64,000 nt of DNA from Sphingorhabdus sp. EL138 (GTDB lineage Bacteria > Pseudomonadota > Alphaproteobacteria > Sphingomonadales > Sphingomonadaceae): positions 62,001 to 126,000 of the forward strand of contig NZ_OGVD01000004.1 in assembly GCF_900258045.1 (NCBI RefSeq). Reading direction: 5' to 3'. The stretch's first letter is position 1. Each line of letters starts with the position of its first letter. The position numbers and the translations under genes were made by a program. A model generated the notes under the pieces. That model was given only the letters and a program-made list of their open reading frames with translations. It was not told the DNA's origin and searched no databases. Below, in pieces: positions 42,102 through 60,848 of this stretch.

Positions 42102-42102
42102 A

Positions 42103-42912
42103 GTGAAGGAAGATCGGATCTTGAAGTTGACCGAAGCTTTTCAGGAATCCTATCAGCCGGTGGCAGTCTTGGATGATGACGCTATCTATAACCATTGCAG
42201 CGACATATTTTATCATGAGTGTTTAGCGGTGTTCCATGACGCCGATGGATCTGTCGTAGAAACCGACGAATATCTGAAGAACAATAATATAGCTCAAATC
42301 GGACAAAGATTTGATCAACACATCGTGGGAGTCGTTCTAGAACTGCTGGCCACCCCTGCTACGCCCGCTTTGGGTTGTAGTATTTCAGCACGTTCGTTTT
42401 TAAAAGATGGTTGGTGGAAAGAGCAACTCAATATGCTTGCTGGCCGTCCTGATATCGCGGGCCGACTGATACTGGAAATTCATGATGTTGAAGAATTCCG
42501 CAAAGCGCCATCAACTATGCTGTTGCTCAAAAAGCTGCGCAACGCCGGATGCCTCCTGGCGCTGGAGGATTTTGGCGTAGGGCATTCCTCTTTTCATGCG
42601 ATGATGACAATGGAACCCGATATCATCAAGATAAATAAGTCTTTCCTGTGGCGTGCAGATAGTGGCCTTCGTTATCGCGATACCTATCATCATCTGGTGG
42701 GTCTTGCCCGAACAATCGCTCCTATTGTGGTTGCAGAAGGTGTCGAATCTTACAGTCATCTCAAAGCGGCATTGAAAGCTGGGGCAACCCATGGACAAGG
42801 CAATGTGCTTGGTGTCGCGCAGGTTGCCCGCCCACAGCAATCAATAAGGTGGGACAAGGACAAACAAAAACAGCGTGATCTGTGTTTGAAAGCTTTGGGT
42901 GCAGAGGATTGA
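42103..42912 (+). CDS. EAL-domain protein with degenerate catalytic motifs
   Basis: The frame is open upstream inside the IalB gene; GTG at 42103 (one base after the IalB stop) is the likeliest start, TTG 42121 an alternative. The 269-residue product is one EAL domain. Counting from the GTG: ECL at 39-41 replaces EAL, GCSISAR (91-97) lacks the Asn of VNLS, LEIHD keeps Glu125, EDFGVG (155-160) replaces DDFGTG, while Lys176, Glu212 and Gln232 remain. Phosphodiesterase activity on cyclic di-GMP is therefore doubtful; a binding or signalling role is more likely. No membrane segment. Confidence 0.75.
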   Translation: MKEDRILKLTEAFQESYQPVAVLDDDAIYNHCSDIFYHECLAVFHDADGSVVETDEYLKNNNIAQIGQRFDQHIVGVVLELLATPATPALGCSISARSFLKDGWWKEQLNMLAGRPDIAGRLILEIHDVEEFRKAPSTMLLLKKLRNAGCLLALEDFGVGHSSFHAMMTMEPDIIKINKSFLWRADSGLRYRDTYHHLVGLARTIAPIVVAEGVESYSHLKAALKAGATHGQGNVLGVAQVARPQQSIRWDKDKQKQRDLCLKALGAED

Positions 42913-42916
42913 GATT

Positions 42917-43096
42917 ATGGTTGATTTATCACTGGATGTGAATCCAAAACCAAACAAATCGCAAACTCGTGACCTTACGTATGCGGATGATGTTGGCTCC
43001 GAATGGAGATTTAGCGTCCGGAAGAGCGCTGCAATAATATTTGTGAGTTCTCTGGCTCTTTGGGCCGTTCCGGTCGTTTTTTGGTTGCTGATGTAG
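42917..43096 (+). CDS. Small membrane-anchored protein of unknown function
   Basis: A 59-residue protein starting at ATG 42917, with AGAGGA ten bases upstream inside the end of the EAL gene. The N-terminal 37 residues are polar; the C-terminus is one membrane segment (IIFVSSLALWAVPVVFWLLM). This tail-anchor layout and its place four bases after the EAL gene suggest a partner of the EAL protein, but nothing more can be said. Confidence 0.5.
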   Translation: MVDLSLDVNPKPNKSQTRDLTYADDVGSEWRFSVRKSAAIIFVSSLALWAVPVVFWLLM

Positions 43097-43254
43097 GGCT
43101 ATTCAAAACGTATGCAACGTCAGCAAAAGTTAAAAAGATATTTGGGCAATAGTTAGGAAGGTTAGGATCGAGCAGGCCGGTGCTGACGAGTGATCAACAG
43201 GAGAGTGGTTCGATTCGATCGGCGTGGATGAAGGAGATTTCCTTGGCACATATA

Positions 43255-44196
43255 CTATTGCAGTCTCGGGCTTTGACCATTTTTGGAATCATCTCCAATG
43301 GACTGTTTGATAGAGTTTTTAATGATCTCGATCATGTTTCGTGCTGGAGCGGACAGGGGGCTACGGCGCCGATATGTTATGTAGGCTTGGCGCGGTTCAA
43401 ACAGCGAAGGATGGGATATTCCGATCAAAATGCCGTTTTTCTCTTCCAACGCAAAAATGTTATTGTTGAGCGCGCAGATGTAGTTGTCTTGTGTAATCAT
43501 TGCTTTGGTGAGAGTGTCAGAGCTGGTTTCCGCAGCTATTTTGGGTGGCTCCAACCCGGCCATCAGAAAGGCGCTGCTGATTTTCTTCCAGTTACCAAGA
43601 CCGCGTGTGACGATCCATGGATATTCTGCAAGCTGTTCAAGACTGATGTGATCGGTCTCGCTGAGGGGGTGATCCCTGCGTATCACTAGTCGTTGTTCAT
43701 GCTTATACATTAACTCTATGCTGGTTAGCTCGCTATGCAACAATTGTGCAGGCGGTAGCGAAACAATAAAATCAAACTCGCCGCGCTCTAATGCCGGAAA
43801 CAGGTTCGGGGACAGCCCGTGGTCAATGTTGATATGGACATCGGGCCAGCGTCTGCGAAACAGATATAGTGCTTCGGGTAATATTTTGGGCATGAATGGA
43901 GGAGCTCCGCCTATCATCAACTGCCCTTTGTGTGAGTCTCGCAGTGCTTCGACTTCTCCCTGTATCAGGCGACTTTCTGTCAGCAGCAGTTTTGCACGCT
44001 GTTCAATCGCCTGTGCATATTTGGTTGGTTCAGCCCCATGGCGACCGCGTTCGAACAGTTTTACATCCAGATGGTCCTCAAGCTTTTTGATATTTTTGCT
44101 AATGGCCGGTTGTGAGATGCCCACTAAGTCAGCAGCCCTCGCAAAGTTGCGAGAATCCATGACAGCCAGAAAGACCTGAAGACGTGAAAGTTCCAT
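43255..44196 (-). CDS. LysR-family transcriptional regulator (copy 2)
   Basis: A 313-residue LysR protein with HTH (FARAADLVGISQPAISKNIKKLEDHLDVKLFERGRHG) and an effector-binding domain. It is a close paralogue of the gene at 31126-32040 and is nine residues longer, ending NGQSPRLQ. The promoter side also matches copy 1 for about 20 bases (CCATTGGTTACC, then GTCAATC). It is divergent from the MalT-like regulator with 407 bases between, and convergent with the adhesin operon. Confidence 0.85.
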   Translation of the reverse strand: MELSRLQVFLAVMDSRNFARAADLVGISQPAISKNIKKLEDHLDVKLFERGRHGAEPTKYAQAIEQRAKLLLTESRLIQGEVEALRDSHKGQLMIGGAPPFMPKILPEALYLFRRRWPDVHINIDHGLSPNLFPALERGEFDFIVSLPPAQLLHSELTSIELMYKHEQRLVIRRDHPLSETDHISLEQLAEYPWIVTRGLGNWKKISSAFLMAGLEPPKIAAETSSDTLTKAMITQDNYICALNNNIFALEEKNGILIGISHPSLFEPRQAYITYRRRSPLSAPARNMIEIIKNSIKQSIGDDSKNGQSPRLQ

Positions 44197-44603
44197 TGGT
44201 TACCCGTCAATCCCGATTTCGTTCCGGTCTTTTCCGATGCGTACGGAAAAAATGCAAAGCTCATTACGGGTAGTTTCTGAAGGAAATAGGGTAGGTATGG
44301 TTAGGTTATAACTTCTAAAGGAGCCAATGCATTAGTGTAACGGACAAGTGATGAAGCCGGTTCGATTTCCCCTCTTGTTAATGCAAGATACACAAATATA
44401 ATGGAATTTACATTACTCATCCCGAGCGTTCAATCTGGCCTGTTAGAGTATTTTGGATCAATCCAATTTTATGACTGAACGCGTCTGTTACATATTCGCT
44501 GTCGCATGACTGCAAAAATCAAAATGCGATTTCAACTATGGCGGGACGGCTAAATGGCAGTGGCCGAGAAATAGGAACGTTACAAAGAGATTGCGATAGC
44601 TAA
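44197..44603. promoter_or_regulatory. Regulatory gap between LysR copy 2 and the MalT-like regulator
   Basis: 407 bases without a supported gene. Inverted repeats: TTTTCCG/CGGAAAA (44230-44250, 7-base spacer) and TTGGATCAATCCAA (44453-44466). ACGGGTAGTT at 44266-44275 is found again at 47504-47513 before the pepsin-like gene. The sequence is A+T rich and should hold divergent promoters. Confidence 0.4.
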
Positions 44604-47282
44604 ATGAAACCTCCTCAACTCAATCGTCATTGGCTTGTTAAGTCAAAGTTGGAGATTCCTCGCAGTAAAGTACCGTTGGTCCCTCGTTCTCGACTAACTT
44701 CGCAAATGGATGACTGGTTAAAGTTCAATTTATGCATCGTTGTCGCTCCGGCAGGTTATGCCAAATCGTCCACTATCTCGCAGTGGAGCAGGCGGGAAAG
44801 CGGACCCAAAAAAGCCGTAGCCTGGTTAACTTTGGATGAGGCTGATAGCGAGCCGACGCAGTTCATTTCGTATTTCATAGCTTCGCTATCTTCAGCCAGC
44901 ATCCCGTTGAAAGGGCTTGAGATGAGTGCGGAGGAAGGTTTCGCTGCGGGTGGGATTTTAAACGCGCTATCATCTATCCTGGAGATGATCGAAGAATTTG
45001 ATTCATCAGTGGTCGTTGTACTGGACGATTACCACCGGGTCGGCTCTCCTGAGGTCGATGAGCTTGTGGTCGAAATGCTCAGCGCAGCACCTGATAATCT
45101 TACCATTGTCATATCATCTCGCACGGTTCCGGCATTTCAAATGTCACATCTATTTGCGGAAGGTCGGGCCTGCGAATTGAGCAGCGATGATTTAAGATTT
45201 TCCAAGGATGAACTGGGAGAGGTTTTTAACCACCACATAAGCGATGAAATACATACAGCATTGTTTCACCGAACAGAAGGATGGCCAGTAGCCGTTCAAC
45301 TTGCAAAGCTGTTAGTTAAGGGTAATTCTGACAACACCGCCTTAGGAAGTTTCAAAGGCAGCAGCGGGCATATCGCATCATATTTGGCTGAGCAGATTGT
45401 CGGTAAACTTGATGCAGATCTGCAAATGTTTTTAATGCAAACATCCCAGCTAGAAAATTATACGTCACCGCTGGCCGCCGCTGTTACAAATCGAGCAGAC
45501 TGCGATTCCATGATTGCGCAATTAGAGCTGCTGAATGCATTGATTGTTCCCGTCAACGAAGAAGAGGAAAGTTATAGATATCACCATCTTTTCAATGAAT
45601 ATCTGCGCAAAGAACTTCATCGAAGACACGGAAGTCAAGGCGTTCTTGAGGTTCATCGCAGAGCTTCACGCTGGTACGAAGAGAACGGATATATCGCAGA
45701 AGCAGTGCGCCATGCTCGATTGTCCCACGACATTGATCGTTGTGCAGAACTGATTGCGGAAGCCGGTGGATGGGAACTTATCCTTTTTGGAGGCATTGGA
45801 TATCTGCGAGGTTTGTTACAGCAAGTGCCGCCAGAGGAGATAAAGCGTTATCCCCGGCTCTTATTGGCTCAAGCATATCTTCACATGAAAGACGGTCTCC
45901 TTCAAAAAGCACGCGCTTTGTTTGACATGGCTGCGAACAACGACAGACATTCCTGTGATTTGAAACATCAAAATCAGCTAGAAAGAGACCTACTCAATGT
46001 GGAAACACTCTTATCTGTTTATGAAGATATTCATATAACCGCTGACACAATAGAGAATATTCAAACTTCGATAGATCAGATTCCCGCCTCCGATCCTGTC
46101 ACGAAGTCGATCATAACATCCCGACTGATAGCAAGTGAGCTTGCCATAGGGCAATTTTTTGAAGCTGAGGATCAGACACAATCCGCGATCCGGGGCATGC
46201 GTGAGGCGGGATCTGTTTTGGGCGCTAATTATATGTTTCTGCATGCCGGCATTGCTGCAATGTACCAGGGACGGTTACGAGCTGCCGAGGCCCATTTTAG
46301 TCTAGCAACAAAAAATGCGGAAGAAAATTTTGCGTATGACCCGGGTCCGCGGGCGATATCCAGGATTCTGGCAGCTTATTTAAATTACTGGACAGGGAGA
46401 CCACAAAATAACCCCGATGAACAAATTGATCGGGATATTGATCAAGTCGAGCGATACGATGGTTGGTTGGACGTATACCACACGGCGCTAATAGTCGAAA
46501 ATGTGGTTCTTAATAAAGCGACTCGTTCCATAGAAAGGTTTAATGGTGTTGCAAAGGAGCGAGGTTTGGTTCGCCTGGCGCATCTAACGAACGCCGCTGC
46601 CCTTAAGCTCAAAGATTCGATAGATAAGGGCTCGCTGGCATTGAGAATTCAGGAGAGTTTTCCAATAGGCCGTTGGGAAGAGGATCCGTTTTGTTGGCTT
46701 CCCTATCTGGAGTCTCGTCTTGCTCTTGCTCATTATTTCTCATCTATTGATCGCTCGCTTGCCATTGAACAGCTTGATGACGGGCTTGAATGTGCTCGAT
46801 CAATTGGCGCAAATCTGCATTTGGTGGCGCTATTTATCAATCGATCAAAATTGTTTTTTATTGCTGGGCAGCGGGAAGCTGCAGTCATTGATTTGGTCGA
46901 GGCATTGACGATTGCGGCTCCAGAATCGATGCGTGGGCCCTTTATACATGATCACAGCATCTTGCCTCTTTTGAGAGCTGTTTTAAGACATGCTCATGAC
47001 GCTCTCATTGATATCTTGGTAATTGATTTTACCCAGTCCCTCATCACCGAGCTATCCAAGATGAACATCTCTCAATCAGAATTCGAAGATTTACTATTGA
47101 GCCGCAGAGAGCAGGAAGTTTTGGCGGAACTTGTCCATGGCCGCTCAAACAAAGAAATAGCTCGCATACTTGATATGACCGAGCACACTGTCAAATTTCA
47201 TTTGAAGAATATCTATGCAAAGTTAAAAACGAACACCCGGACGAAAGCAGTCATTGAGGCAAAGAGACTTGGCCTTGCCTGA
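44604..47282 (+). CDS. MalT-type (LAL-like) transcriptional activator with LuxR HTH
   Basis: An 892-residue STAND-type regulator. N-terminal: arm and nucleotide-binding domain with a variant Walker A, APAGYAKSSTISQW (about 48-61; MalT has GYGKTT), and Walker B VVVVLDDYHRV. Middle: TPR-like superhelix that senses an inducer (about 380-800). C-terminal: LuxR helix-turn-helix LSRREQEVLAELVHGRSNKEIARILDMTEHTVKFHLKNIYAKL. It should activate promoters when a small ligand and ATP are bound. It lies upstream of and parallel to the pepsin/avidin/receptor/hydantoinase genes, its probable targets. The gene is more A+T rich than the core genes. Confidence 0.87.
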   Translation: MKPPQLNRHWLVKSKLEIPRSKVPLVPRSRLTSQMDDWLKFNLCIVVAPAGYAKSSTISQWSRRESGPKKAVAWLTLDEADSEPTQFISYFIASLSSASIPLKGLEMSAEEGFAAGGILNALSSILEMIEEFDSSVVVVLDDYHRVGSPEVDELVVEMLSAAPDNLTIVISSRTVPAFQMSHLFAEGRACELSSDDLRFSKDELGEVFNHHISDEIHTALFHRTEGWPVAVQLAKLLVKGNSDNTALGSFKGSSGHIASYLAEQIVGKLDADLQMFLMQTSQLENYTSPLAAAVTNRADCDSMIAQLELLNALIVPVNEEEESYRYHHLFNEYLRKELHRRHGSQGVLEVHRRASRWYEENGYIAEAVRHARLSHDIDRCAELIAEAGGWELILFGGIGYLRGLLQQVPPEEIKRYPRLLLAQAYLHMKDGLLQKARALFDMAANNDRHSCDLKHQNQLERDLLNVETLLSVYEDIHITADTIENIQTSIDQIPASDPVTKSIITSRLIASELAIGQFFEAEDQTQSAIRGMREAGSVLGANYMFLHAGIAAMYQGRLRAAEAHFSLATKNAEENFAYDPGPRAISRILAAYLNYWTGRPQNNPDEQIDRDIDQVERYDGWLDVYHTALIVENVVLNKATRSIERFNGVAKERGLVRLAHLTNAAALKLKDSIDKGSLALRIQESFPIGRWEEDPFCWLPYLESRLALAHYFSSIDRSLAIEQLDDGLECARSIGANLHLVALFINRSKLFFIAGQREAAVIDLVEALTIAAPESMRGPFIHDHSILPLLRAVLRHAHDALIDILVIDFTQSLITELSKMNISQSEFEDLLLSRREQEVLAELVHGRSNKEIARILDMTEHTVKFHLKNIYAKLKTNTRTKAVIEAKRLGLA

Positions 47283-47360
47283 CGCAGATATGCTATATGT
47301 CAGTCGATTGGCGGCAGTTTGAAGTTGCCATAAGTGAAAGCTCTTCAAATAATCTGTGTT

Positions 47361-47387
47361 CCAAAGTCAGCTGATTTGGCTTTTTTT
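47361..47387 (+). terminator. Hairpin with T-run after the MalT-like gene
   Basis: CCAAA and TTTGG enclose a nine-base loop that itself contains TCAGCTGA; seven T residues follow. The stem is short, so strength is moderate. Confidence 0.55.
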
Positions 47388-47621
47388 GGTGAGCCATAAA
47401 ATATGGTTTCTTTTGGAGGTTGCGTACCAATAATCCGAGCTGTTTTACCTGTGTTTTTCAATATTATTATTTAAAATCATAAACTTAAATGAAACCTGCT
47501 CGAACGGGTAGTTGACAGAATTGCTCTTTCCATGAGATTTTTATTTCGAATTTAAATGCGAGTTCAGAAGGTTATCTATGTGATATTCTGATGTACTCTT
47601 TCTAATTTCATAGGGTGTCAG
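47388..47621. promoter_or_regulatory. A+T rich promoter region of the pepsin-like gene
   Basis: With the preceding terminator this makes a 339-base gap. It contains ACGGGTAGTT (47504-47513), the same decamer as in front of the MalT-like gene, and long A/T runs. No other gene is seen. Confidence 0.35.
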
Positions 47622-49049
47622 ATGGGGTATGTAATGGTCAAATATTGTTCAAATTTCTCGTATATAAAAACTTATAAATATTCATGTATAGCTTCCATTT
47701 TATATATCTCAGCTTTAGCGTCTGGATCAGTCAGTGCAGCTGAAGCGCAAGAAGAAAGCCATGCCGAGCGCCAAACGAGTTATATCGAACTCCCGCTGCA
47801 ACGAGGCGGATTGTCAGGCAATGGTGCCGTGCCTTGGTTTACCGATGCCCTCAGCATTGGGGAAAGCAAAATGCATGTTGCCTTGGATAATGGGTCGCAT
47901 TTCAATTGGGCGACCTCTGATAGATGTACGACGCCGGCCTGTAATGCTCATAGAAAAGTTAACACGCGCACTGGTGATATTGCTTGGATTGATGAGTCTC
48001 CCATGGACATCAGTTGGGGCCCATGGGGAACAATGGCCGTAGGTGTTGGCAAGGGAACCTACAATCTTGCTGATAGTAACGGCTCATATCTCAGCTATGA
48101 TCAAAACCTAACCCTGTCTTTGAACTATTCTGGCCCGAAATTTGAATATTTGCCGTGGGGTGGTGGCATTACCTTGCCTGCGGACTCACGATGCGTATGG
48201 GCGGTTCCAGCAAACCCGCTTTGTCCTACCTTTGACGGAACAGTTAAAAAATCCAAAGATTCAAGGAGATCGAGTGGTCTGTCGTCCAGCTTCCTACTCT
48301 ATGATCTCTACTTTAACACGGACAAACTTCAGTCCCCCCAATATTCATTCTTTACTGACCGCCCAACCCGGTCTGGAAGCTTCTATATGGGAGGCGATAA
48401 TTACAAAGTTTTCGACCAGTCGACAGCTGTAAACCTTCCACCGCGTCTAACACCTTTTGGTTATCTGTGGGGCACAAAGCTGCACGAAATGAAGGTCGGG
48501 TCAAACTCTCTAGGTGCTTTTGAAAGTGCCACGATTGTTCTGGATACAGGATCATCCCGCTTTAAAGGCGATGCGGCTCATATCATTCCTATTTTGAACC
48601 AGCTTTTAAGCATTCGCGATGGCAACGGTATGCCTGTATTTGAAAGAATCTTTGAAGGAACGCCACAGAAATGGACGGGCCTGAAATATCGCAAAGGGGG
48701 ACCAAAAGATCATCCGAATCTGCCCCCGATTTCAATTGAAATTGGCCAAAGCTGTAACGGTGTGGATGGTCAGCATCTGATCTTGACCCTTGCTCCCGAT
48801 CAATATTCTTACCTGATCGAAGCAGGTGATCAAAAGGGCACATGGGCAGTTTCCGCTCATGTCCTTGACGGTATTCCATTCCTGTTGGTTGGCTCAACCG
48901 TTCTGGACCTTGTGTATAGCCGTTACAGTTACAACGTGCTTCAGACGAAAGATAAGCCCGAGCTTATCCAAGGCGATATGACTGTTTTTCGAAAGGCAAC
49001 GGGCGAACAGCCTGCGGGATATCAATGTGTAAAGCCCGGGTCGGCCTAA
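47622..49049 (+). CDS. Secreted pepsin-like (family A1) aspartic protease homologue
   Basis: A 475-residue protein with a signal peptide (h-region about 22-40, cleavage near SAAEAQ). It has the two-lobed pepsin plan: first active-site motif MHVALDNGSHFNWATSDRC at about 84-102 (DNGS instead of DTGS, then a Cys pair CTTPAC), second motif ATIVLDTGSSRFKG with Asp308, preceded by SGSFYMGGDN, which matches the GSVVIFGGID strand of pepsins. Near the end FLLVGSTVLDLVYSRYSYN matches the ILGDVFLRxYYxVFD module. Pepsin homologues are rare in bacteria. The Thr-to-Asn change may lower or change activity. ATG 47634 is an alternative start. Confidence 0.78.
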   Translation: MGYVMVKYCSNFSYIKTYKYSCIASILYISALASGSVSAAEAQEESHAERQTSYIELPLQRGGLSGNGAVPWFTDALSIGESKMHVALDNGSHFNWATSDRCTTPACNAHRKVNTRTGDIAWIDESPMDISWGPWGTMAVGVGKGTYNLADSNGSYLSYDQNLTLSLNYSGPKFEYLPWGGGITLPADSRCVWAVPANPLCPTFDGTVKKSKDSRRSSGLSSSFLLYDLYFNTDKLQSPQYSFFTDRPTRSGSFYMGGDNYKVFDQSTAVNLPPRLTPFGYLWGTKLHEMKVGSNSLGAFESATIVLDTGSSRFKGDAAHIIPILNQLLSIRDGNGMPVFERIFEGTPQKWTGLKYRKGGPKDHPNLPPISIEIGQSCNGVDGQHLILTLAPDQYSYLIEAGDQKGTWAVSAHVLDGIPFLLVGSTVLDLVYSRYSYNVLQTKDKPELIQGDMTVFRKATGEQPAGYQCVKPGSA

Positions 49050-49113
49050 TCCCAGCCAGCAATCAAGCAATCATCAACAGAAGCAGACTTTGCATCCAAA
49101 TTAGGAGATCGTC

Positions 49114-50064
49114 ATGAAGGTAAAGGCATTTCTAAGTTCCGTCGTTATATTCGGATTGACCGCACCGGCTAGTGTTGCAGCCGCTCAAAGCGGGAAATCG
49201 GATAATGGATCCATTGCTGGCACATGGTATAACTCATATTGTTCTCAAGTTGCACTCACCACTGGTCCTGGAAACTTGGTCCAGGGAACCTACACGTCGC
49301 ATACCGGATCTACTGGTTCGTTTAAAATTACCGGTTATGTGGGGGTAGCAGCAAACGACCCTCAAAAAACGAACGGAACTCCGGTTGCGCTGAGTCTCCA
49401 TTGGCGGGCAATCAACGTGGACCCATCCAAGGGCGATGGGTCATGGCATTGGGTATCGAATTTTGGCGGTCAGTATCATCCGGCACAGACTGTTTCCGTT
49501 CCGGGACAAAAGCCTTACTCTGTTGAAGAAACACTAGAAATTATGAATATGATAATTGCAACATCTACGGTGCCTGGCTTCAACAGCAAGGCTCCGCTCA
49601 TGTGGCCGGAAACAATTCAATTTCACAAAACCCCACCAAGCTATTGTGAACCTATTACGCCTCCCCCGCCCATATCTTACAAAAGTGAAGCTTCTGACTT
49701 AGTGTCCGGTAAATGGCGCACCAGTGCCGGAGATACCTTGAATTTATACGCTAATATTGAGGATGGGACTGTCAGTGGCCTGTTTTATAGAGCCTCGGGT
49801 GAAACCTACAGCGTTAAGGGGCTGGTGGATAACTTCTCAAACTATGTACCCGGTGTGACCATCGAAGAACAAGGTGTCAGTTTATCACTATATCAGACAA
49901 ATGGAGCGGCGAGCGGCTTGATCACGATGGGGGGAGGGGTCCCGTACTCAAACAAAACTTCATTGAGCTTGTTCACAAATGATTTGTCGTCCACGGATTG
50001 GAACAGTCGCTTCCTCGAATCTACAGTGGACAAGATTAATTTTCAGCGCGTCGGTCCAAACTAG
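49114..50064 (+). CDS. Secreted tandem avidin-fold protein
   Basis: A 316-residue protein with a signal peptide ending SVAAAQ. Domain 1 (about 32-170) matches streptavidin: IAGTWYNSYCSQVALTTG against GITGTWYNQLGS, then GTYTS, a GY strand, LSLHWRAIN and GGQYHP. Asn, Ser, Tyr and Ser at the biotin-ureido positions (N23, S27, Y43, S45 of streptavidin) are kept. A Pro-rich linker (ITPPPPIS) leads to domain 2 (about 195-313): GKWRTSAGDTLNLYANIEDG, LFYRASG, then SLSLFTN, DWNSRFLES and INFQRV. Domain 2 lacks several ligand residues. A single chain with two barrels is unusual; natural avidins are tetramers of one-domain chains. The ligand may be biotin or another cyclic ureide. Confidence 0.75.
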   Translation: MKVKAFLSSVVIFGLTAPASVAAAQSGKSDNGSIAGTWYNSYCSQVALTTGPGNLVQGTYTSHTGSTGSFKITGYVGVAANDPQKTNGTPVALSLHWRAINVDPSKGDGSWHWVSNFGGQYHPAQTVSVPGQKPYSVEETLEIMNMIIATSTVPGFNSKAPLMWPETIQFHKTPPSYCEPITPPPPISYKSEASDLVSGKWRTSAGDTLNLYANIEDGTVSGLFYRASGETYSVKGLVDNFSNYVPGVTIEEQGVSLSLYQTNGAASGLITMGGGVPYSNKTSLSLFTNDLSSTDWNSRFLESTVDKINFQRVGPN

Positions 50065-50096
50065 TTTGATTCCAGAAAAAATATAGCGCTTGTCCA

Positions 50097-50621
50097 GTGG
50101 TGCAAAACTGTATCGTAGAGTTTGAAACCGATTATGGTCTGTTCTCAATGGAGTTGATGCTTGACGTCGCTCCGGTGACTGCCGGCTATTTCAAAGCCTT
50201 GATTGAAGCAGGTGCTTTGGATGGTAGTTCGATTTTCCGTATCGTGGGAAAGGATAATGCTGAACATAGGCCGGACTATCCTATTGAGGTCGTGCAAGGC
50301 GGTTTGAAGGCGGAAGATCCACAACCCATCGCGCCCATTGCGCATGAGCCGACATCGAAGACGGGAATTCGGCATATAAAGTGGACTGTCTCGGCGGCGC
50401 GTTTCGGTCCTGGTGAAACTTACGGTAGTTTCTTTGTTTGTATGGCAGATACACCGAACCTTGACGAAGGTGGCCAACGACATCCCGATGGTCTTGGCTT
50501 TGCGGGTTTTGGGAGAGTGATCAGCGGTTTCTCTGTGTTAGGCGCCATGTTTGTGCATAGGGAAACATTAGAAATGCTCGAGGTTGAGATACCGATTCAT
50601 CGTGCGCGAATTCGAAAATGA
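50097..50621 (+). CDS. Cyclophilin-type peptidyl-prolyl isomerase
   Basis: A 174-residue cyclophilin domain: IVEFETDYGLFSMELMLDVAPVTAGYFKALIEAG, DGSSIFRIV, then GSFFVCMADTPNLDEGG and GFAGFGRVISGFSVL. The family Arg in FHRI is kept as FRIV. No signal peptide is visible, so it seems cytosolic, unlike its secreted neighbours; start codons GTG 50097 and 50100 have no clear ribosome binding site. It sits 32 bases after the avidin-fold gene and probably shares its transcript. Confidence 0.78.
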   Translation: MVQNCIVEFETDYGLFSMELMLDVAPVTAGYFKALIEAGALDGSSIFRIVGKDNAEHRPDYPIEVVQGGLKAEDPQPIAPIAHEPTSKTGIRHIKWTVSAARFGPGETYGSFFVCMADTPNLDEGGQRHPDGLGFAGFGRVISGFSVLGAMFVHRETLEMLEVEIPIHRARIRK

Positions 50622-50788
50622 AATCCAAATCAAAGCGCAGGGCGCTACCTAACTGAAAGGATAGGCCGCAGTATCAAAGCCCATCCCAAAAATGAGATGA
50701 CCTATACTTTTCCGCGATTGCCGGATGATTTTCCAAAGGTCTATTTTAATCGCTCAGATAAGCCAATTGATGGTCTTCGGGAGGAAAA

Positions 50789-53035
50789 ATGACAACAGCA
50801 ACAATGAAAATCGCGGTTGCCGCCTTTATGGCAACAACATCTCTTTCTTCATTTAGCTCTGCAGCTTATGCTCAGAATGGGGAGCAAGCAGATGATGATA
50901 ATGTCATTATCGTAACTGCACGTGGCCGTGAAGAAACGCTTGTAGAAGTTCCCCTCTCGACAACGGTATTCAATGGGGAAGATATCGAGGCTGCTGGGAT
51001 AGACCGGGTCGATGACTTTTTGGGTCTGACGCCAGGGGTCTCCATTGCAAATTCACAGGATTCAGGGACTAATTTCATTACCATTCGCGGTGTGTCTCAA
51101 ACGCGTAACGGGCAGCCGCCCGTAGCCGTTTTGATTGACGGCGTGTTGCAGGTGAACTCACGGAGTTTTGACCAACCACTTTATGAGATAGAGAGCATAG
51201 AGGTGCTACGTGGGCCGCAGGGCGCACTTTATGGCCGCAATGCTACCAACGGCGCCATCATTATCAATACCAAGGATCCAAGTGAGAAGCTGAGCGGATA
51301 TGTAAAAGGCGGTTATGGAACTGGCGAGGAATATCTCATTGAAGGGACGGTTTCGGGGCCCTTAGTCGAAGATAGATTGGGGCTTCGGGTCTCTGGGCGC
51401 TATTATAGCAGGGATGGCTATTTCACCAACGTGGCGTTGAATGACGAGGTCGGCTTTTATGATGAATTCAATGTCAAAGGCCACTTGCACTTCACGCCAA
51501 GCGATGAGCTTACGGTTGATTTGCGCGCCACCTATACAGAAAATGATGGTGATTCCCTCAATTATACCTTTCAGGGTGTCACAACCGATCCTGTGACTGG
51601 TGAAGTTAATGGTTTTGCAAGTGTAGCGGATGCCAATGTCGTGCAGCGCCGTTTTTCAGCTAATAACAGAGGTTTTGATGATCGCAAGGTTGGCCAGATA
51701 TCTCTCCTGATCAATTATGATCTGGGCTTTGCGAATTTGTCATCGGCAACAGCTTGGGACAAGCTTCGCCAATCGATCGGCGGTGATCAGTTTCCCTATA
51801 GTGCGAATACGACTGTCAATCCCGGGTTGTCTTTCTTTGATGGTACGCAAACACAATTTGTAGATGTTGAAGCTATTAGTCAGGAAATCCGGCTGACATC
51901 CCATGATGATTCTGCCTTTCGCTGGATGGTTGGCGGCTACTATCTAGCTACTGACCGGTTTATCTCAACTTCTACGGGTGATGATTTGGAACTAGGTCTG
52001 TTGCCTGTTTCTCGGTCGCCGCTCCTTGGTAATGCTGTCAACCCAACTAATGGATTTACCGCGGATGACAATGACAATACGGCGTGGGCCTTTTTCTTCA
52101 ATGCTGCCTATGACGTAACCGAACAGCTGGAAATTGCCGTTGCTGGTCGATACGATGAGGATCGGCGCAAACAGACGGTTAGTTTGCAGAACGGGTTCTT
52201 TGATGCTGCGGGGAATCTGCTTGCACCTCAAGGTACACCCGGTGCGGTCAATCGTCGTACTTTTTCGCGTTTTCAGCCCAAAGTTAGCGCGCGTTATCTG
52301 GCCACTGATAACTTCTCTATCTATGCGTCTTGGGGCCGAGGTTTTCGAAGCGGCCAATTCAACCAGAACGGTGTTGCAGCTGCGGCCGCTGGCGCAGGAC
52401 TGGTAGGCGTGACGGATATCTATGATCAGGAGAATACCGAAACTTTCGAAGCTGGCCTGAAGTTCAACCTACCCGGTCGTCTCTCCATCTCCGCTGCCGC
52501 TTACCATACCACGGTCGAGAATGCCCCTTACTTTGTCTTTGTCGGTGCCGTTGGCGCGCAGATATTGGTGGGTATTGACGAAGTCGAAATTCAGGGCGGA
52601 GAATTGGAGGTTTCCGCTAATTTGGCTGATGGTCTGGATCTCGATCTCGGGCTTGCGATAAGCGATAGTGAAATCAAAGCCTATTCGCTTGATCCCATGC
52701 TAGTTGGCAACAAGGCGCCCTATGTGCCTAACGCCTCATTCAATGCTGGTTTGCAATATCGTACACCGATTATTGGTTCAGTAGGCTTCTTTGGCCGTAT
52801 GGACTATGAAGTGCGCGGCCAGCAGTTCTGGGATCCTGAAAATTCGACTGCCCGCCATTCGCTTGATTTGGTCGGTTTGCGGGCGGGTATCGAGGATATT
52901 GAAGGCAAATGGTCGCTGATCGGTTCCGTGGAAAACGTGACTGATGTGGTTTATAACTCTGAATATGTGACCGGCGGATTTGCGCATGCTGCAAGTCCGC
53001 GCATCTGGCGCATTGAAGGCCGTATCAACTTCTAA
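50789..53035 (+). CDS. TonB-dependent outer-membrane receptor (cargo module B)
   Basis: A 748-residue receptor; ATG 50789 follows GGGAGG. Signal peptide ends SAAYAQ. The TonB box region is NVIIVTARGREETL; the plug has FLGLTPGVSIANSQ, ITIRGVSQ, VAVLIDGVLQ and IEVLRGPQGALYGRNATNGAI. A 22-strand barrel ends with WRIEGRINF. The plug type is the one common in sphingomonads for hydrophobic or aromatic compounds. It should import the substrate handled by the hydantoinase genes that follow. Confidence 0.9.
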   Translation: MTTATMKIAVAAFMATTSLSSFSSAAYAQNGEQADDDNVIIVTARGREETLVEVPLSTTVFNGEDIEAAGIDRVDDFLGLTPGVSIANSQDSGTNFITIRGVSQTRNGQPPVAVLIDGVLQVNSRSFDQPLYEIESIEVLRGPQGALYGRNATNGAIIINTKDPSEKLSGYVKGGYGTGEEYLIEGTVSGPLVEDRLGLRVSGRYYSRDGYFTNVALNDEVGFYDEFNVKGHLHFTPSDELTVDLRATYTENDGDSLNYTFQGVTTDPVTGEVNGFASVADANVVQRRFSANNRGFDDRKVGQISLLINYDLGFANLSSATAWDKLRQSIGGDQFPYSANTTVNPGLSFFDGTQTQFVDVEAISQEIRLTSHDDSAFRWMVGGYYLATDRFISTSTGDDLELGLLPVSRSPLLGNAVNPTNGFTADDNDNTAWAFFFNAAYDVTEQLEIAVAGRYDEDRRKQTVSLQNGFFDAAGNLLAPQGTPGAVNRRTFSRFQPKVSARYLATDNFSIYASWGRGFRSGQFNQNGVAAAAAGAGLVGVTDIYDQENTETFEAGLKFNLPGRLSISAAAYHTTVENAPYFVFVGAVGAQILVGIDEVEIQGGELEVSANLADGLDLDLGLAISDSEIKAYSLDPMLVGNKAPYVPNASFNAGLQYRTPIIGSVGFFGRMDYEVRGQQFWDPENSTARHSLDLVGLRAGIEDIEGKWSLIGSVENVTDVVYNSEYVTGGFAHAASPRIWRIEGRINF

Positions 53036-53043
53036 AGATAGTC

Positions 53044-53077
53044 AATGAGGGGCCCTGCTTGGCAGGTCTCCCTCATT
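53044..53077 (+). promoter_or_regulatory. Large hairpin between receptor and hydantoinase genes
   Basis: AATGAGGG pairs exactly with CCCTCATT, and inside CCTGC pairs with GCAGG. No T-run follows, so it is more likely an mRNA processing or stability element, or a weak attenuator, than a terminator. Confidence 0.5.
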
Positions 53078-53127
53078 CATATCAGCTCATGCGTTGCATG
53101 CCGCGGTACATTTATGGGATTAGGTAT

Positions 53128-55188
53128 ATGAAGATTAGGGCAGCTTCCGACGTGGGCGGGACTTTTACCGATTTGGTATATTGCGAGTTGAATGACCAAA
53201 CGGGGGCTATTGAATCCATCCAGACTGAAAAAGCGCATACTACCCCTCCCGATTTTGAGAAAGGCGTTCTTAGTACGCTGAAAAAGGCGGACATCTCCTT
53301 CGCAGAAATGATATTTTTTGCTCACGGTTCAACCGTTGTCATCAATGCGTTGACCGAACGCAAAGGTGTGAAGACCGGACTGATAATGACTCGTGGTTTT
53401 CGTGATATACTGGAAATCGCACGCGGCAACCGGCCGGATTTCTTCAACCTGCGATATGAAAAGCCGGAAGCTTTCATCCCTCGTTATCTGCGCAGAGAAA
53501 TTACCGAGCGTTTGGACTATAAGGGCCAGGTGATAGAAAATCTGACTTTGAAAGAACTATCGCCCATTTTGGAAGACTTCAAGAAGGAAGGAGTAGAAGC
53601 GATTGCGGTCTGCTTGCTTCATTCCTACGCTAATCCTGATCATGAGCAGGAACTGGTCGGGAAGATTAAATCGCTCTGGCCAGATGTCGCGATTGTCGCG
53701 TCACACCAGGTATCACGAGAATGGCGTGAGTATGAAAGAAGCAATACAGCGGCTCTATGTGCATATGTGCAACCTATCGCCGAAAAATATCTCTCCAATA
53801 TGGAGGACGCGCTGCATAATAACGGCTTTGACGGTTCGTTTTATGTCATGCGATCTAATGGCGGCATAGACACTGTAAAATCGGTGAAGGAAATTCCGAT
53901 CACCGTGGTGGAATCCGGGCCAGCTAGTGGTGTGCTGGGGGCCGAAGCACTCGGCAAGCTGCTGGGCATCGAAAATATCATTGCCTTTGATATTGGTGGG
54001 ACAACGGCGAAATGCTCGTTAATTGATCAAGGCCGCGTTTCGGTAACTAGCCAGTATATGATCGAGAAAACCCCACTATCTTCGGGTTATCCAATCATGA
54101 CGCCCGTGGTCGATATTGTTGAAATAGGCAATGGCGGCGGTTCCGTCGCTTGGCTCGACGATCATGGAAAAATGCATGTCGGACCGCAAAGCGCGGGCGC
54201 GCTGCCTGGACCTGTGGCCTATGGCAAGGGTGGAATTGAGCCGACCACTACCGATGCCAATTTGATGCTTAACCGTATCAATCCCAATTATTTCATTGGC
54301 GGAGAAATTCAGGCGGACATGGAAAAAGTCCGTTCGGCCTTTGAAAAACTGGGTGATCCGGTGAATTTAGGGCCGCAGGAGGCCGCCCGCGGCGTTATTC
54401 GCATTGCTAATCACAATATGGCCAATGCTTTGAAGTTGGTTTCAATCAACCGTGGTTATGATCCGCGTGATTTTACATTGGTTGCCTTTGGCGGCGGCGG
54501 CGCAATGCATGCGACTGCGCTGGCCAAGGACTTGAATATCCCGAAAGTTGTCGTGCCTGCGCATAGTGCAGTATTTTCTGCTTTGGGAATGCTGCTATCT
54601 GACCTGCGCCGTGATTACATCCGCACAAGCCCAATGCCGCTTGATATATTGCAAGCCGCAGCCATTGGTAAGACTATTTCGGAAATGGAAGATGAGGCTC
54701 TGGCTTCCTTCGCTGAGGAGGGCTTCAGCAATGATGATATCTATTTCGAGCGCTTTTTGGATATGCGCTACGAAGGACAGGAACATTCGATGCGCGTGCC
54801 AATCGCATCTTCGAAAATCGCTGAAAAAAACGTGGATCTACTGCACCGTGATTTTGGCAATGCCTATGAACGTGAATATACATATCGGCTGGATAGCGAT
54901 GTAGAAATTGTGAGTTTCCATCTTGCCGCCTATGCGCAGATCGAGAAGCCCGAACTTTCTCCCATTGCAGAAGACAAGGATGTCGCAAACGCCATTAAGG
55001 AAAAGCGCGATGTTGATTTTGATGAATCAGGTGTTGCCGAGGCGGTAATCTATGATCGCGATAAATTGGGCGCTGGAGCAGAGATCCAAGGCCCAGCTGT
55101 TATTGAGGAATCAGGCTCGACTACCGTCATTTTTCCTGACCAGTCAGCCACAGTCGATAGATTTGGTAACCTGCATATTGCAATATAG
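53128..55188 (+). CDS. Hydantoinase/oxoprolinase family protein, HyuA-type subunit
   Basis: A 686-residue protein. The open frame begins earlier, but the family start is ATG 53128 (MKIRAASDVGGTFTD). The N-terminal Hydant_A_N domain has DVGGTFTD; the ASKHA ATPase domain has AFDIGGTTAKCSLI and GNGGGSVAWLD; a C-terminal domain follows. Family members (5-oxoprolinase, N-methylhydantoinase, acetone/acetophenone carboxylase, caprolactamase) use ATP to activate a carbonyl for hydrolysis or carboxylation. The next gene codes for the B subunit. It is cytosolic; the substrate is probably brought in by the preceding receptor. Confidence 0.87.
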   Translation: MKIRAASDVGGTFTDLVYCELNDQTGAIESIQTEKAHTTPPDFEKGVLSTLKKADISFAEMIFFAHGSTVVINALTERKGVKTGLIMTRGFRDILEIARGNRPDFFNLRYEKPEAFIPRYLRREITERLDYKGQVIENLTLKELSPILEDFKKEGVEAIAVCLLHSYANPDHEQELVGKIKSLWPDVAIVASHQVSREWREYERSNTAALCAYVQPIAEKYLSNMEDALHNNGFDGSFYVMRSNGGIDTVKSVKEIPITVVESGPASGVLGAEALGKLLGIENIIAFDIGGTTAKCSLIDQGRVSVTSQYMIEKTPLSSGYPIMTPVVDIVEIGNGGGSVAWLDDHGKMHVGPQSAGALPGPVAYGKGGIEPTTTDANLMLNRINPNYFIGGEIQADMEKVRSAFEKLGDPVNLGPQEAARGVIRIANHNMANALKLVSINRGYDPRDFTLVAFGGGGAMHATALAKDLNIPKVVVPAHSAVFSALGMLLSDLRRDYIRTSPMPLDILQAAAIGKTISEMEDEALASFAEEGFSNDDIYFERFLDMRYEGQEHSMRVPIASSKIAEKNVDLLHRDFGNAYEREYTYRLDSDVEIVSFHLAAYAQIEKPELSPIAEDKDVANAIKEKRDVDFDESGVAEAVIYDRDKLGAGAEIQGPAVIEESGSTTVIFPDQSATVDRFGNLHIAI

Positions 55189-55200
55189 GAAAGGTTCAAC

Positions 55201-56886
55201 ATGGCTAAAGAAGACTTAGCGCCAAAGGTGGCGGAACATGACCCTATAACGATTGAGATCATACAAAGCTCGCTGCGCTCTATCACCGATGAGATGTTCG
55301 CTACTATGCGCAAGACGGCGATGAGTTCCGTCATTTACGAAGTACTCGATTTCGGTGTCGCGATGATGGACGCTGATGGTGAACTGGCCAGTTCGGGGTC
55401 CGGTATTCCCAGCTTTGTCGGTATGCTGGCGCCAGGTATTAAATCGGTAAGGCGGAAATTCACAAAGCCTGATGACATCAAGCCAGGTGATGTTTTTGCG
55501 ACCAATATCCCGCACCATGGCGGCGTTAGCCATCTAAATGATGTCGTGTTGATGCAGCCTGTATTCTTCAATGGCCAAATTATAAGCTGGCTCGCCAACA
55601 AGGCCCATTGGGTTGACGTTGGTGGCACCTTTCCGGGCAGTATCAGCGTAGATGCGCTGGATATCTATCAAGAAGGTCTGCAACTGCCGTGCATAAAGGT
55701 GATTGATCAAGGAAAAGAAAACCAGGCAGTTATTGACATTATGGCGGGCAACTCCCGTGTGCCGGATATCACTGTTGGAGATTTTTGGGCAGGCATTGCC
55801 TCTATGCGTTCAGGCGAAAAACGTTTGCAGGCGCTCATTGAGAAATATGGTGATGAAACGGTGCGTTATGCGATAGCGGACTATATTGCTCTAGGCGAAG
55901 CTATGGCTCGCACTGAGCTCAAAAAGCTGCCGATGGGTGTCTATTCGGCGACCGAAAAGCTGGAGGATGGCCGTGTTGTGAAGGCGGTTGTGACAATCAC
56001 CACAGATGCTTTTACGGTCGATTTGCGTGGTAATCCCAAACAGGGTAAAAATGCGCTGAATTCATCCTTGGATGCTACTATTGTCGATGCTCAAATGGTG
56101 TTCAAAGCACTGACGGACCCCCAATCTTTTGCCAATGCAGGGTCGTTTCGACCGGTTGAAGTTTTAACTGATGAGGGGTCTATTTTCAATGCGCAATATC
56201 CCACCGCGATGGGGGTATATTATGAAACCGGTATGATCCTGTTTGACCTTATCTGGAAAGCTTTGGCACCATTCATGGAGCAGCATCTCACAGCTGGCCA
56301 CTATGGTTCAATCTGCGGAACATTTCTGGGCGGTAAACATCCTGATACTGGAAAGGAACATTCGATTGTCGAGCCACAATTGGGCGGCTGGGGCGCAAGT
56401 TTGGATCGTGACGGCGTGAACGCACTTTATACTGGACAGCATGGCGAAACCTTTAACGTACCTGTCGAGGTCGCTGAACAGCGCAACGGACTGATGATTG
56501 ATCGCTTGTGCTTGAATGATGCACCGGGCGGTGAGGGTCAATATATTGGCGGTAAGGGAATAAATCTCGACTACCGTATCCTCGGCGATGATTGGTGGAT
56601 TTCGATGACCTATGTCCGCTCCGAAAGTGGTCCATGGGCCCTGGAAGGGGGAAGGCCGGGTAGCACCAACTATATCAATGTGGTCCGCAAGGATGGCAGT
56701 GAAAAACGCTATTCGTCTTGCACTGCCTTGCCGCTTGAAAAAGGTGATGTCGTGCAAGTGGTGACGGCCAATGGCGGCGGCTATGGGCCACCACAAAAAC
56801 GCGCGAAAGACAGCGTTTTTTCTGACATCAAAAATGGTTACATAACAGCAGAACGCGCGCGCTATATTTATGGTACAGAAGCCTGA
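55201..56886 (+). CDS. Hydantoinase/oxoprolinase family protein, HyuB-type subunit
   Basis: A 561-residue Hydantoinase_B protein; AGGAAAGG precedes the ATG. Conserved features: DPITIEIIQSSLRSITDEM at the start, ATNIPHHGGVSHLNDVVLMQPVF and NKAHWVDVGG with probable metal-binding His and Asp residues, and a C-terminal VTANGGGYGPPQKR. It forms a complex with the HyuA-type protein coded 12 bases upstream. The lack of a third small subunit and of biotin-carboxylase genes argues for amidohydrolase rather than carboxylase action; this is inference. Confidence 0.87.
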   Translation: MAKEDLAPKVAEHDPITIEIIQSSLRSITDEMFATMRKTAMSSVIYEVLDFGVAMMDADGELASSGSGIPSFVGMLAPGIKSVRRKFTKPDDIKPGDVFATNIPHHGGVSHLNDVVLMQPVFFNGQIISWLANKAHWVDVGGTFPGSISVDALDIYQEGLQLPCIKVIDQGKENQAVIDIMAGNSRVPDITVGDFWAGIASMRSGEKRLQALIEKYGDETVRYAIADYIALGEAMARTELKKLPMGVYSATEKLEDGRVVKAVVTITTDAFTVDLRGNPKQGKNALNSSLDATIVDAQMVFKALTDPQSFANAGSFRPVEVLTDEGSIFNAQYPTAMGVYYETGMILFDLIWKALAPFMEQHLTAGHYGSICGTFLGGKHPDTGKEHSIVEPQLGGWGASLDRDGVNALYTGQHGETFNVPVEVAEQRNGLMIDRLCLNDAPGGEGQYIGGKGINLDYRILGDDWWISMTYVRSESGPWALEGGRPGSTNYINVVRKDGSEKRYSSCTALPLEKGDVVQVVTANGGGYGPPQKRAKDSVFSDIKNGYITAERARYIYGTEA

Positions 56887-57049
56887 GTTACAGTGAGATC
56901 GAACGAGCATCCCAGAAACATGTTAAATATGAAACACCGGTAGAACGCTTCGGTGCATGTGCTGCGATCGCCCGTTGAAACCGCAGGACAAAGATGACAC
57001 TGGTCCACACTAACCCTTATATTTTTTGGTATGCTGATCTGATGTCCGA

Positions 57050-57883
57050 TCAGGGGTTCAAAACATGTCTCACTGTTTCTACCGTAGTTGGTGCACCACC
57101 GGTATATCTCTCGCAGTTCAATATCACGCGCTCCATTTGTCGGAGGTCGCGCTTCACTCTCGGCTGGTTAAAAAAGCCAACTAGGGTTTTGATGGCGGCT
57201 TTGTCGGTTATGCCTTTTGCCTCTGCGATCATTGCCAAATCATCGTTAGATAGATTGGCATAGGTCAACTGCTCTTCGTATAGCAGTCGGCTCCTAACCG
57301 CTCCTGCAATCACACTGTCGCGGCCAAGACTTTCATCAAGTGCAAATTCATTATTGCCGATAAAAATTAAGCCGAGTGGAATTGGTCCAGTTGTTCTGTC
57401 CCTATCATTAAAATCGCGCAGCATTTCGATGGCTTCGCGAGAAAGCCTCTGCGCTTCATCAAAGATGATCGTTATCGGATAGTGAACGTCCAAATCGTCA
57501 AGGTCGTTTGGATCGCAACGCTTATAGACAAGATTGAAAACCATCTGTCGAAGCTGCCAAAGGGAACCGCTTAGCTGCATTCCGCCACGCTCTCCGTTTT
57601 CCATACGCATGGTTTCAGCGATACGTTGCAAGATCGACCGGGCCGTGGAACCTTGTTTGTTTGTCCCGTTTTCAACTTTCACAACTATGAATTCACCGAA
57701 TCTGTCTTCTGTTTTTCTCGTTAATTCGTTGATTGTCGTTGTTTTACCAATTCCCCACGGTCCGGAAATGACAGATATCCCGCGCCGTTCATGCGTATCC
57801 TGCATCACTCTCATCAACAGACGGACTACAGAAGTTCCAACGATTTTGCTTTCTGTCCTAGGTTTTAGTTGAACGAGGCCCAC
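57050..57883 (-). CDS. MuB/TniB-type AAA+ transposition ATPase
   Basis: A 277-residue AAA+ protein; GTG start at 57883, overlapping the transposase gene by 26 bases. Walker A GPWGIGKTTTINEL, Walker B ITIIFDEAQRLS, sensor 1 FIGNNEF and an arginine-finger region VRSRLLYEE. Such ATPases select target DNA and activate the DDE transposase. The length is near that of TniB and MuB. It is the last gene of the minus-strand transposition operon. Confidence 0.87.
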   Translation of the reverse strand: MGLVQLKPRTESKIVGTSVVRLLMRVMQDTHERRGISVISGPWGIGKTTTINELTRKTEDRFGEFIVVKVENGTNKQGSTARSILQRIAETMRMENGERGGMQLSGSLWQLRQMVFNLVYKRCDPNDLDDLDVHYPITIIFDEAQRLSREAIEMLRDFNDRDRTTGPIPLGLIFIGNNEFALDESLGRDSVIAGAVRSRLLYEEQLTYANLSNDDLAMIAEAKGITDKAAIKTLVGFFNQPRVKRDLRQMERVILNCERYTGGAPTTVETVRHVLNP

Positions 57884-59852: not shown

Positions 59853-60058
59853 GAGGTAATTAACCTAAACTCCAATCTCTTCTTTGCACTTTCGGGAACC
59901 GAACGCCTTCGCCGCCATTGTGATTCGGTTGATTGATTTTTCCCCAGAAATCGAGCAAGTTGAGCGTCGGTTTCGCATTGCGCCTTTTGCTTCATATCCA
60001 CAATTTCTGCATCCACTTGTTTTGAACGAGTGTTGCTTTTGGTCATAAATACACCCAT
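59849..60058 (-). CDS. Small CI-type HTH protein, first gene of the transposition operon
   Basis: A 69-residue protein (ATG 60058; ATG 60046 also possible) with a CI-repressor type helix-turn-helix, TDAQLARFLGKNQSTESQWRRRRSVPE. The stop overlaps the transposase start by four bases, so it is in one operon with it. By position it resembles the Ner-like negative regulator of Mu-type elements. Confidence 0.7.
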   Translation of the reverse strand: MGVFMTKSNTRSKQVDAEIVDMKQKAQCETDAQLARFLGKNQSTESQWRRRRSVPESAKKRLEFRLITS

Positions 60059-60090
60059 CAGAGATTACTAAACACGACAGGCAATGACAT

Positions 60091-60124: not shown

Positions 60125-60154
60125 CTCTGCCCTCATGAAGATGAGGGAGTTCCA

Positions 60155-60779: not shown

Positions 60780-60848
60780 AATTGAAAAAGCGCTTCCATC
60801 GAAGTTCGCGGATCACCATTGTCAGCCGCTCGATATTCACTTACATGA

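Follow-up and report, generated by a model that had tools for sequence, protein, structure and literature searches.

A tandem avidin and a pepsin homologue beside an ATP-dependent ring-amide hydrolase in Sphingorhabdus: a candidate catabolic cluster

The 64,000-nucleotide stretch of Sphingorhabdus sp. EL138 analysed here (contig NZ_OGVD01000004.1, positions 62,001 to 126,000; hereafter the window) carries a cluster that opens with a MalT-like regulator and continues on the same strand with an A1 pepsin homologue, a tandem avidin, a cyclophilin, a TonB-dependent receptor, and HyuA and HyuB, the subunits of an ATP-dependent ring-amide hydrolase (Table 1). These seven same-strand genes had been proposed in an earlier note made from the letters alone, and a Pfam scan finds every one of them, of the kind and at the place given there. 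The regulator is separated from the pepsin gene by 339 bp, the pepsin gene from the avidin gene by 64 bp, and the latter from the cyclophilin gene by 32 bp; 167 bp lie between cyclophilin and receptor and 12 bp between HyuA and HyuB. The gap between receptor and HyuA is 23 bp with the listed TTG start of HyuA and 92 bp with the ATG at 53128, which seems the more likely start.

Table 1. Genes of the cluster, followed by flanking genes, in window coordinates
Feature	Position	Strand	Matches and remarks
MalT-like STAND/LuxR-type regulator, 892 aa	44604..47282	+	PF00196 (GerE) 67.2 bits; NCBIfam MalT 298.8 bits
A1 pepsin-like protein, 475 aa, signal-peptide-like N terminus	47622..49049	+	PF00026 32.5 bits (cut-off 19.9)
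Tandem avidin, 316 aa, signal-peptide-like N terminus	49114..50064	+	PF01382 29.9 bits (cut-off 24), domain 1 only
Cyclophilin-type peptidyl-prolyl isomerase, 174 aa, signal peptide not apparent	50097..50621	+	PF00160 54.9 bits
TonB-dependent outer-membrane receptor, 748 aa, plug and barrel	50789..53035	+	PF00593 130 bits; PF07715 76.5 bits
HyuA, ATPase subunit of ATP-dependent ring-amide hydrolase	53059..55188 (TTG start as listed)	+	PF01968 324.3 bits; PF05378
HyuB, hydrolase subunit	55201..56886	+	PF02538 494.5 bits
LysR-type regulator, divergent	43255..44196	-	PF03466; PF00126
AAA ATPase, partner of transposase-like gene	57050-57883	-	Just past HyuB, within low-GC stretch
Transposase-like gene	57858-59852	-	Weak matches: rve (integrase core) 17.3 bits, Mu-type 16.2 bits, each under cut-off

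A profile search finds such an avidin in 5 of 249 genomes of the host family and in 5 of 398 genomes of a phylum sample, the window genome being included in both counts. A scan of genome contigs yields 13 loci, the families of two further genomes, G477 and G287, yield 3 of 158 and 1 of 61 genomes, respectively, and plasmids yield one record. With duplicates merged, 19 avidin genomes are counted: the window genome, G083 (locus L012), G090 (L013), G011 (L021), G052 (L010/L109), L014, L015, L016, L017, L018, L020, L022, L023, G477 (L030/L108), G580 (L031/L111), G751 (L107/L110), G401 (L032), G287 (L033) and Novosphingobium sp. EMRT-2 (L065). Two loci were left out of this count. The first, L019, is labelled 'Bacillus subtilis SK6B4', but its genes are nearly those of the Pseudochrobactrum loci L018 and L020, and the assembly is probably mislabelled or contaminated. 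In the second, L024, an intact pepsin of the secreted type stands beside an avidin whose reading frame is broken, with a TIR-NB-ARC-WD40 gene ~7 kb away.

HyuAB occupies the same locus as the avidin in 16 of the 19 genomes, and a pepsin homologue stands beside the avidin in 13, which bears out the co-occurrence of A1 peptidase, avidin and HyuAB genes that the earlier note had put forward as a check. Within the family sample, a close HyuA is present in all four avidin genomes besides the window's, as against 7 of the 244 others (Fisher 2e-6). A MalT-like regulator is found in every avidin-HyuAB locus that could be read for it (15 of 15, at ~6 kb from the avidin in L016); in G580 the contig stops shortly upstream of HyuA, so that the regulator is unreadable there. 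These loci are not independent events, since EMRT-2 and several relatives share one lineage, and the counts were made without a tree. Gene order and orientation vary among the avidin-HyuAB loci. In L109, for instance, pepsin and avidin are divergent from the MalT-like regulator, receptor and HyuAB. A single operon inherited whole is therefore rejected. A chance neighbourhood is likewise dismissed by the recurrence of the set across distant genera, which makes a functional link among pepsin, avidin, HyuAB and the MalT-like regulator likely. The reading that we favour, at a little less than an even chance, is a catabolic cluster, acquired horizontally, that takes a small ring amide through uptake, capture, ATP-dependent opening and peptidase processing; the leading candidates for this amide are cyclic dipeptides and hydantoin-like ureides.

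Pepsin and avidin share one open frame in four genomes (G477, 718 aa; G580, 643 aa; G751, 643 aa; G287, 752 aa). In the phylum sample, the pepsin profile and the avidin search pick the same five genomes (Fisher 1e-9 without the window genome), and in the family sample the pepsin occurs in four of the five avidin genomes and in none lacking an avidin (Fisher 2e-6, again without the window genome). At E-values up to 1e-10, no such pepsin without an avidin is found among the 398 genomes of the phylum sample or the 249 of the family sample; the profile used (A3) was built in part from avidin-adjacent pepsins of the searched genomes, so that the negative side of this comparison is independent and the positive side is not. 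The general A1 profile, PF00026, matches 1 of 35 family genomes, namely the window's own. When plasmids were searched with the types from L012 rather than those of the window, the cytoplasmic-type pepsin had no match and the avidin a single record. Both catalytic-type Asp residues (DNG and DTGS motifs) are invariant in all 12 aligned pepsin homologues, and the AlphaFold2 model of the window protein (mean pLDDT 80.8) has pepsin-type proteases as its top Foldseek matches (E 4.5e-20). The flap tyrosine, Tyr75 in pepsin A1, is not kept; Phe, or Trp in the window, stands at the aligned place before GPWG.

All six avidin genomes that lack the pepsin have HyuAB, and five of them (L021, L016, L018, L022 and L065) carry an M24 peptidase; in the sixth, L020, the sequence ends 1.3 kb after HyuB, and a peptidase is unreadable there. 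G580 and G751 carry the pepsin plus an M24 peptidase. Among curated models, Xaa-Pro peptidases are nearest to the three M24 proteins tested, and an Xaa-Pro dipeptidase is nearest to the L057 amidohydrolase, with all scores below cut-off. Two other arrangements were seen among the relatives. In L014, a metagenome-assembled genome (MAG) of Sphingomonadales, one pepsin gene is flanked by two avidin genes (7886-10816). In L017 (Euryhalocaulis, 10010-12140), the pepsin has the look of an exported protein, its hydrophobic stretch being followed by a cysteine, and the neighbouring avidin has no export signal; this pepsin is possibly a lipoprotein, and the pair may be split between compartments.

HyuA carries two DxGGT phosphate motifs, the first of which reads DVGGTFTD. 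Its nearest curated model is the NCBIfam caprolactamase alpha subunit (530.8 bits), and HyuB scores 247 bits against the beta subunit; with a cut-off of 1000 in each case, neither is assigned as an equivalog. The family to which HyuAB belongs consists of ATP-dependent hydrolases of ring amides, to which some carboxylases are related; 'hydantoinase' names that family and not a demonstrated substrate. The ring opening of a cyclic amide or ureide that the earlier note envisaged survives as the best guess from the HyuAB link, although its term hydantoinase cannot be taken for a shown substrate. The classical hydantoin operon, hyuABCE, includes a carbamoylase, HyuC, and a racemase, HyuE, and a hydantoin permease accompanies the operon of Pseudomonas sp. 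NS671. A PF01177-type racemase occurs in 8 of the 16 avidin-HyuAB loci (L016, L018, L020, L021, L065, G477, G580 and G751, the Pfam family being shown for L018 only), an NCS1 permease in L017 and L020, and an M20 peptidase in L016; a scan of the window cluster genes gives no M20 (HyuC) and no PF01177 (HyuE racemase) match. A Ketogulonicigenium plasmid bears a cluster on the same plan but without an avidin, consisting of transporters, HyuAB, an Xaa-Pro peptidase and a racemase.

As described in passages of the caprolactamase paper (PMC8453981), the substrates of the hydrolases in this family are all cyclic amides, and CapAB shares with the window pair the two-subunit, ATP-dependent plan and the motifs DxGGTxTD and DxGGT. 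The window HyuAB differs in scoring far under the caprolactamase cut-offs and in standing with an avidin, a pepsin and a MalT-like regulator. The hyuABC operon of Pseudomonas sp. NS671, which the same passages cover, also has HyuAB in common with the window, and some relatives of the window cluster add an M20 peptidase, the racemase or the permease. The window cluster, in contrast, has no HyuC, racemase or permease, and the peptidase of its relatives is mostly M24 or pepsin. Beside these systems, the locus would be a cluster for ring-amide catabolism to which an unexpected partner has been added.

HyuA homologues close to that of the window (E up to 1e-150) are found in 12 of the 249 family genomes, at 14 loci, of which five are avidin loci and nine (L056-L064) have neither avidin nor pepsin. 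In four of the nine (L057, L058, L060 and L064), HyuAB stands with a TonB receptor and with a cyclophilin that shares 42-47% identity with that of the window. HyuAB in L059 is accompanied by a receptor, a racemase and the closest MalT homologue seen (54%); L056 has HyuAB (HyuA 64%) and a racemase; and L061-L063 are more distant (HyuA ~40%). The existence of avidin-less receptor-HyuAB loci means that receptor and HyuAB are a unit of their own. A fixed system of the six genes listed in the earlier note is rejected: in the family sample most close HyuA loci (9 of 14) have neither pepsin nor avidin, and the cyclophilin is seldom present beside an avidin. That note had held that its proposal would be refuted by receptor-HyuAB clusters regularly lacking pepsin and avidin, together with separate transcription of the two halves; the first part of this is what the family sample shows.

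The same avidin-less units lend weight to a first alternative, namely that the window merely joins two modules, a pepsin-avidin pair and a TonB receptor-HyuAB(-cyclophilin) unit, that have no common substrate. Pepsin-avidin pairs without HyuAB exist as well (L023, L032 and L033), and the two halves are 167 bp apart in the window. Chance joining, however, fails to explain 16 of 19 genomes with varied gene orders and orientations, and we regard this alternative as unlikely.

All 16 avidin-HyuAB loci have a likely route through the outer membrane. A TonB receptor is present in 9 of them (window, L012, L013, L014, L015, L017, L021, L065 and L109). The other seven (L016, L018, L020, L022, G477, G580 and G751) have instead a member of a ~300-residue family, unmatched in Pfam and beginning with a signal-peptide-like stretch, which may provide another outer-membrane route. 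The cyclophilin occurs in the window and in L012 (on the other strand, 34% identical), that is, in 2 of 16 loci with an avidin as against four of the nine without, and therefore follows the receptor-HyuAB unit and not the avidin. Its R48 and Q67 are invariant in all six HyuAB-linked homologues; by eye, we take them to be the equivalents of Arg55 and Gln63 of CypA, and its activity is a prediction. Among seven plasmid cyclophilin records, H32, H33, H37 and H38 show no HyuAB within 8 kb, in incomplete annotation, and the remaining three are from Ketogulonicigenium, like H33. The four copies without an annotated HyuAB speak against a general cyclophilin-HyuAB rule. The cyclophilin profile matches 126 of 199 genomes, too broad a result to bear on such a rule, and its three top matches had served to build it.

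The regulator has a MalT-like architecture but stays under the NCBIfam MalT cut-off of 537 bits, and is not assigned as an equivalog. Its presence in all 15 readable avidin-HyuAB loci suggests a second alternative, in which a STAND-type switch recognises its ligand through the avidin, with or without the pepsin, and the avidin reports a ring amide instead of feeding HyuAB. A STAND-type ATPase also adjoins the avidin in two of the three HyuAB-less loci (a TIR-AAA16 protein with weak TPR in L023 and an AAA16-TPR protein in L033), and in L032 a hybrid histidine kinase gene lies just downstream of the avidin. In L023, a proteobacterial MAG, pepsin, avidin and TIR-AAA16 protein stand in a row (3473-8574). 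Nevertheless, MalT-like regulators are also near three of the nine avidin-less HyuAB loci, adjoining in L059 and 5-6 kb off in L062 and L063, and the difference from the five of five avidin loci in the family sample is only weakly significant (Fisher 0.03, on loci that are not independent). Moreover, the window pepsin and avidin look exported and would have no direct contact with a cytoplasmic regulator. Sensing in place of catabolism is thus an alternative to be taken seriously, if an improbable one.

Pfam recognises domain 1 of the window avidin and misses the second domain. The two halves match each other profile-to-profile (hhalign probability 89.7, E 1.8e-6), and the AlphaFold2 model (mean pLDDT 80.3, pTM 0.83) has two 8-strand barrels, so that the C-terminal half forms another avidin barrel in the model. 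The top solved matches of the whole model in Foldseek are PDB 6s4q and 6s50 (TM 0.68-0.70 by query, 0.79-0.81 by target), engineered single-chain dimeric streptavidins that likewise hold two avidin barrels per chain; the window avidin differs in being natural, in being ~19% identical over the structural alignment, and in having a second barrel without ligand residues.

In streptavidin, N23, S27 and Y43 hold the ring carbonyl of biotin and S45 one ring NH, and D128, W108 and W120 also serve biotin binding. The domain 1 equivalents of N23, S27, Y43, S45 and W79 are identical in all 16 aligned rows, whereas W108, W120 and D128 are kept at the aligned positions in none. An acid two residues ahead of the D128 position is present in every row (Asp in 14, Glu in 2) and may substitute for D128. 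W92 depends on the alignment, a conserved Trp being aligned there in one and not in the other. By eye, domain 2 lacks these ligand-site residues; it is probably a degenerate partner barrel, which would make the protein a natural single-chain dimer, probably with one site. Because domain 1 keeps the residues for the carbonyl and one NH and not those for the second NH and the tail, its ligand would share the ring head of biotin but not its tail.

Export was judged by a simple hydrophobicity check rather than a dedicated predictor. In the window, pepsin and avidin both start with signal-peptide-like N termini. Among the 19 avidins, only those of the window and G287 have a clear start of this kind, and most others begin at the first strand. 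To judge from these N termini, pepsin and avidin both look exported in the window, which is unusual, and cytoplasmic in most relatives. The secretion of both that the earlier note had read from the window therefore holds there but not for most relatives, and proteolytic release with extracellular binding has to be given up as a general logic.

A1 peptidase-avidin fusions are already known. Passages of Laitinen et al. 2021 (PMC8033661) describe 'extended' bacterial avidins with a C-terminal extension of ~150 residues, in which no domain was recognised, and some of which are fused to an A1 pepsin-like domain; the list given there includes Cupriavidus pinatubonensis and Burkholderia oxyphila, the species names of L022 and L016. 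They are the same kinds of protein as here, where the extension is predicted to be the second avidin barrel. In these passages, the extended avidins are deemed potent biotin binders, defence is proposed, with a suggested link to the peptidase domain, and function is held not to be judgeable without experiments. In the main text of that paper the word hydantoin is absent, and the passages name no HyuAB, MalT-like or receptor neighbours, the supplementary tables being outside this statement. Our literature searches gave no report of an association of HyuAB and MalT-like regulators with an avidin, of the tandem fold or of the ligand-site pattern, and for the combination of genes this paper was the only relevant one that they brought up.

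A third alternative follows that proposal: the avidin would be a true biotin binder directed against competitors or grazers, the peptidase its helper and HyuAB a mere neighbour. The five kept site residues fit such a trap, as do the TIR protein beside the pepsin-avidin pair in L023 and that near the pepsin in L024. The loss of W108, W120 and D128 at their aligned positions does not, 17 of the 19 avidins have no clear export signal and would be awkward inside a biotin-dependent cell, and 16 of the 19 sit with HyuAB. None of the four pepsins and avidins tried matches a PADLOC model, PADLOC matches being limited to the TIR proteins of L023 and L024. A biotin trap is quite unlikely on this evidence.

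The genomic setting points to horizontal acquisition. In the host genome of 3.66 Mb, a low-GC island encloses the cluster (42000-62000), with a GC content of 44-50% from 42 to 62 kb (2-kb windows) as against 51-60% in the rest of the 64-kb stretch. The transposase-like gene and its AAA partner (57050-59852) are likely a mobile element. The sample includes four further genomes of the genus, none of which has this avidin, this pepsin or a close HyuA, and the cluster was probably acquired horizontally. Nothing ties the divergent LysR-type regulator to the cluster; among the annotated stretches of the relatives, only L018 has a LysR match (43 bits, 5 kb from the avidin). A search for a shared DNA motif in three intergenic stretches gave just two overlapping 14-mers (12 matches) between two of them, which we judge to be chance. 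Upstream of the cluster, a repetitive open frame of 2844 aa (32746-41280) resembles, by eye, a trimeric autotransporter adhesin.

In the catabolic reading, the MalT-like STAND activator would switch the cluster on and the TonB receptor would import the compound into the periplasm, both as inferred from their families. The tandem avidin would capture the ring amide, a step presumably placed differently by host, in the periplasm in the window and in the cytoplasm in most relatives. HyuAB, whose phosphate motifs are present, would open the ring with ATP, as its family does. The peptidases in these loci suggest that the opened product is peptide-like, to be handled by the pepsin homologue or, in most pepsin-less relatives, by the M24 peptidase of the Xaa-Pro type. 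If the substrate is a cyclic dipeptide, opening would leave the remaining bond cis, and with proline it would be slow to relax; this would be a job for the cyclophilin and would fit the Xaa-Pro peptidases. The racemase of some relatives would epimerise the ring. For a hydantoin, the racemase, NCS1 permease and M20 peptidase of some relatives would fit, and the avidin pocket would suit a ring -NH-CO-. Because of the peptidases and the cyclophilin, we lean slightly to a cyclic dipeptide over a hydantoin, the scarcity of the cyclophilin notwithstanding.

Several observations weigh against this catabolic reading. HyuAB is absent from the stretch read in three of the 19 avidin genomes, most close HyuA loci do without avidin and pepsin, the cyclophilin is confined to two of 16 avidin-HyuAB loci, and every M24 and M20 assignment scores under its curated cut-off. 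In scans of the window cluster, counts of promoter-like and terminator-like signals were under the shuffled expectation and gave no operon signal. No direct precedent for the proposed pathway was found in the literature. A paper on cyclic-dipeptide degradation reported that peptidases cleaved no ring and that no strain degraded cyclo(Pro-Tyr).

For the avidin itself, it is possible, if on balance doubtful, that the tandem clade has moved from biotin to the dedicated recognition of small ring amides (cyclic dipeptides or hydantoins). Such an avidin would be a natural single-chain dimer with one site, partnered by a pepsin-like protein that is sometimes part of the same chain, and would either hand its ligand to an ATP-dependent ring-opening enzyme or signal to a STAND switch. 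To our knowledge, an avidin for ring amides would be the first with a metabolic or sensory role. That such avidins repeatedly stand with HyuAB, a peptidase and a MalT-like regulator supplies concrete candidate ligands and an assay for bacterial avidins, and suggests for them a testable job other than holding biotin. If the avidin does bind cyclic dipeptides or hydantoins, the cluster would provide a genetic route for the breakdown of these compounds, and the protein would be a practically useful avidin scaffold, a natural single chain that probably has a single site.

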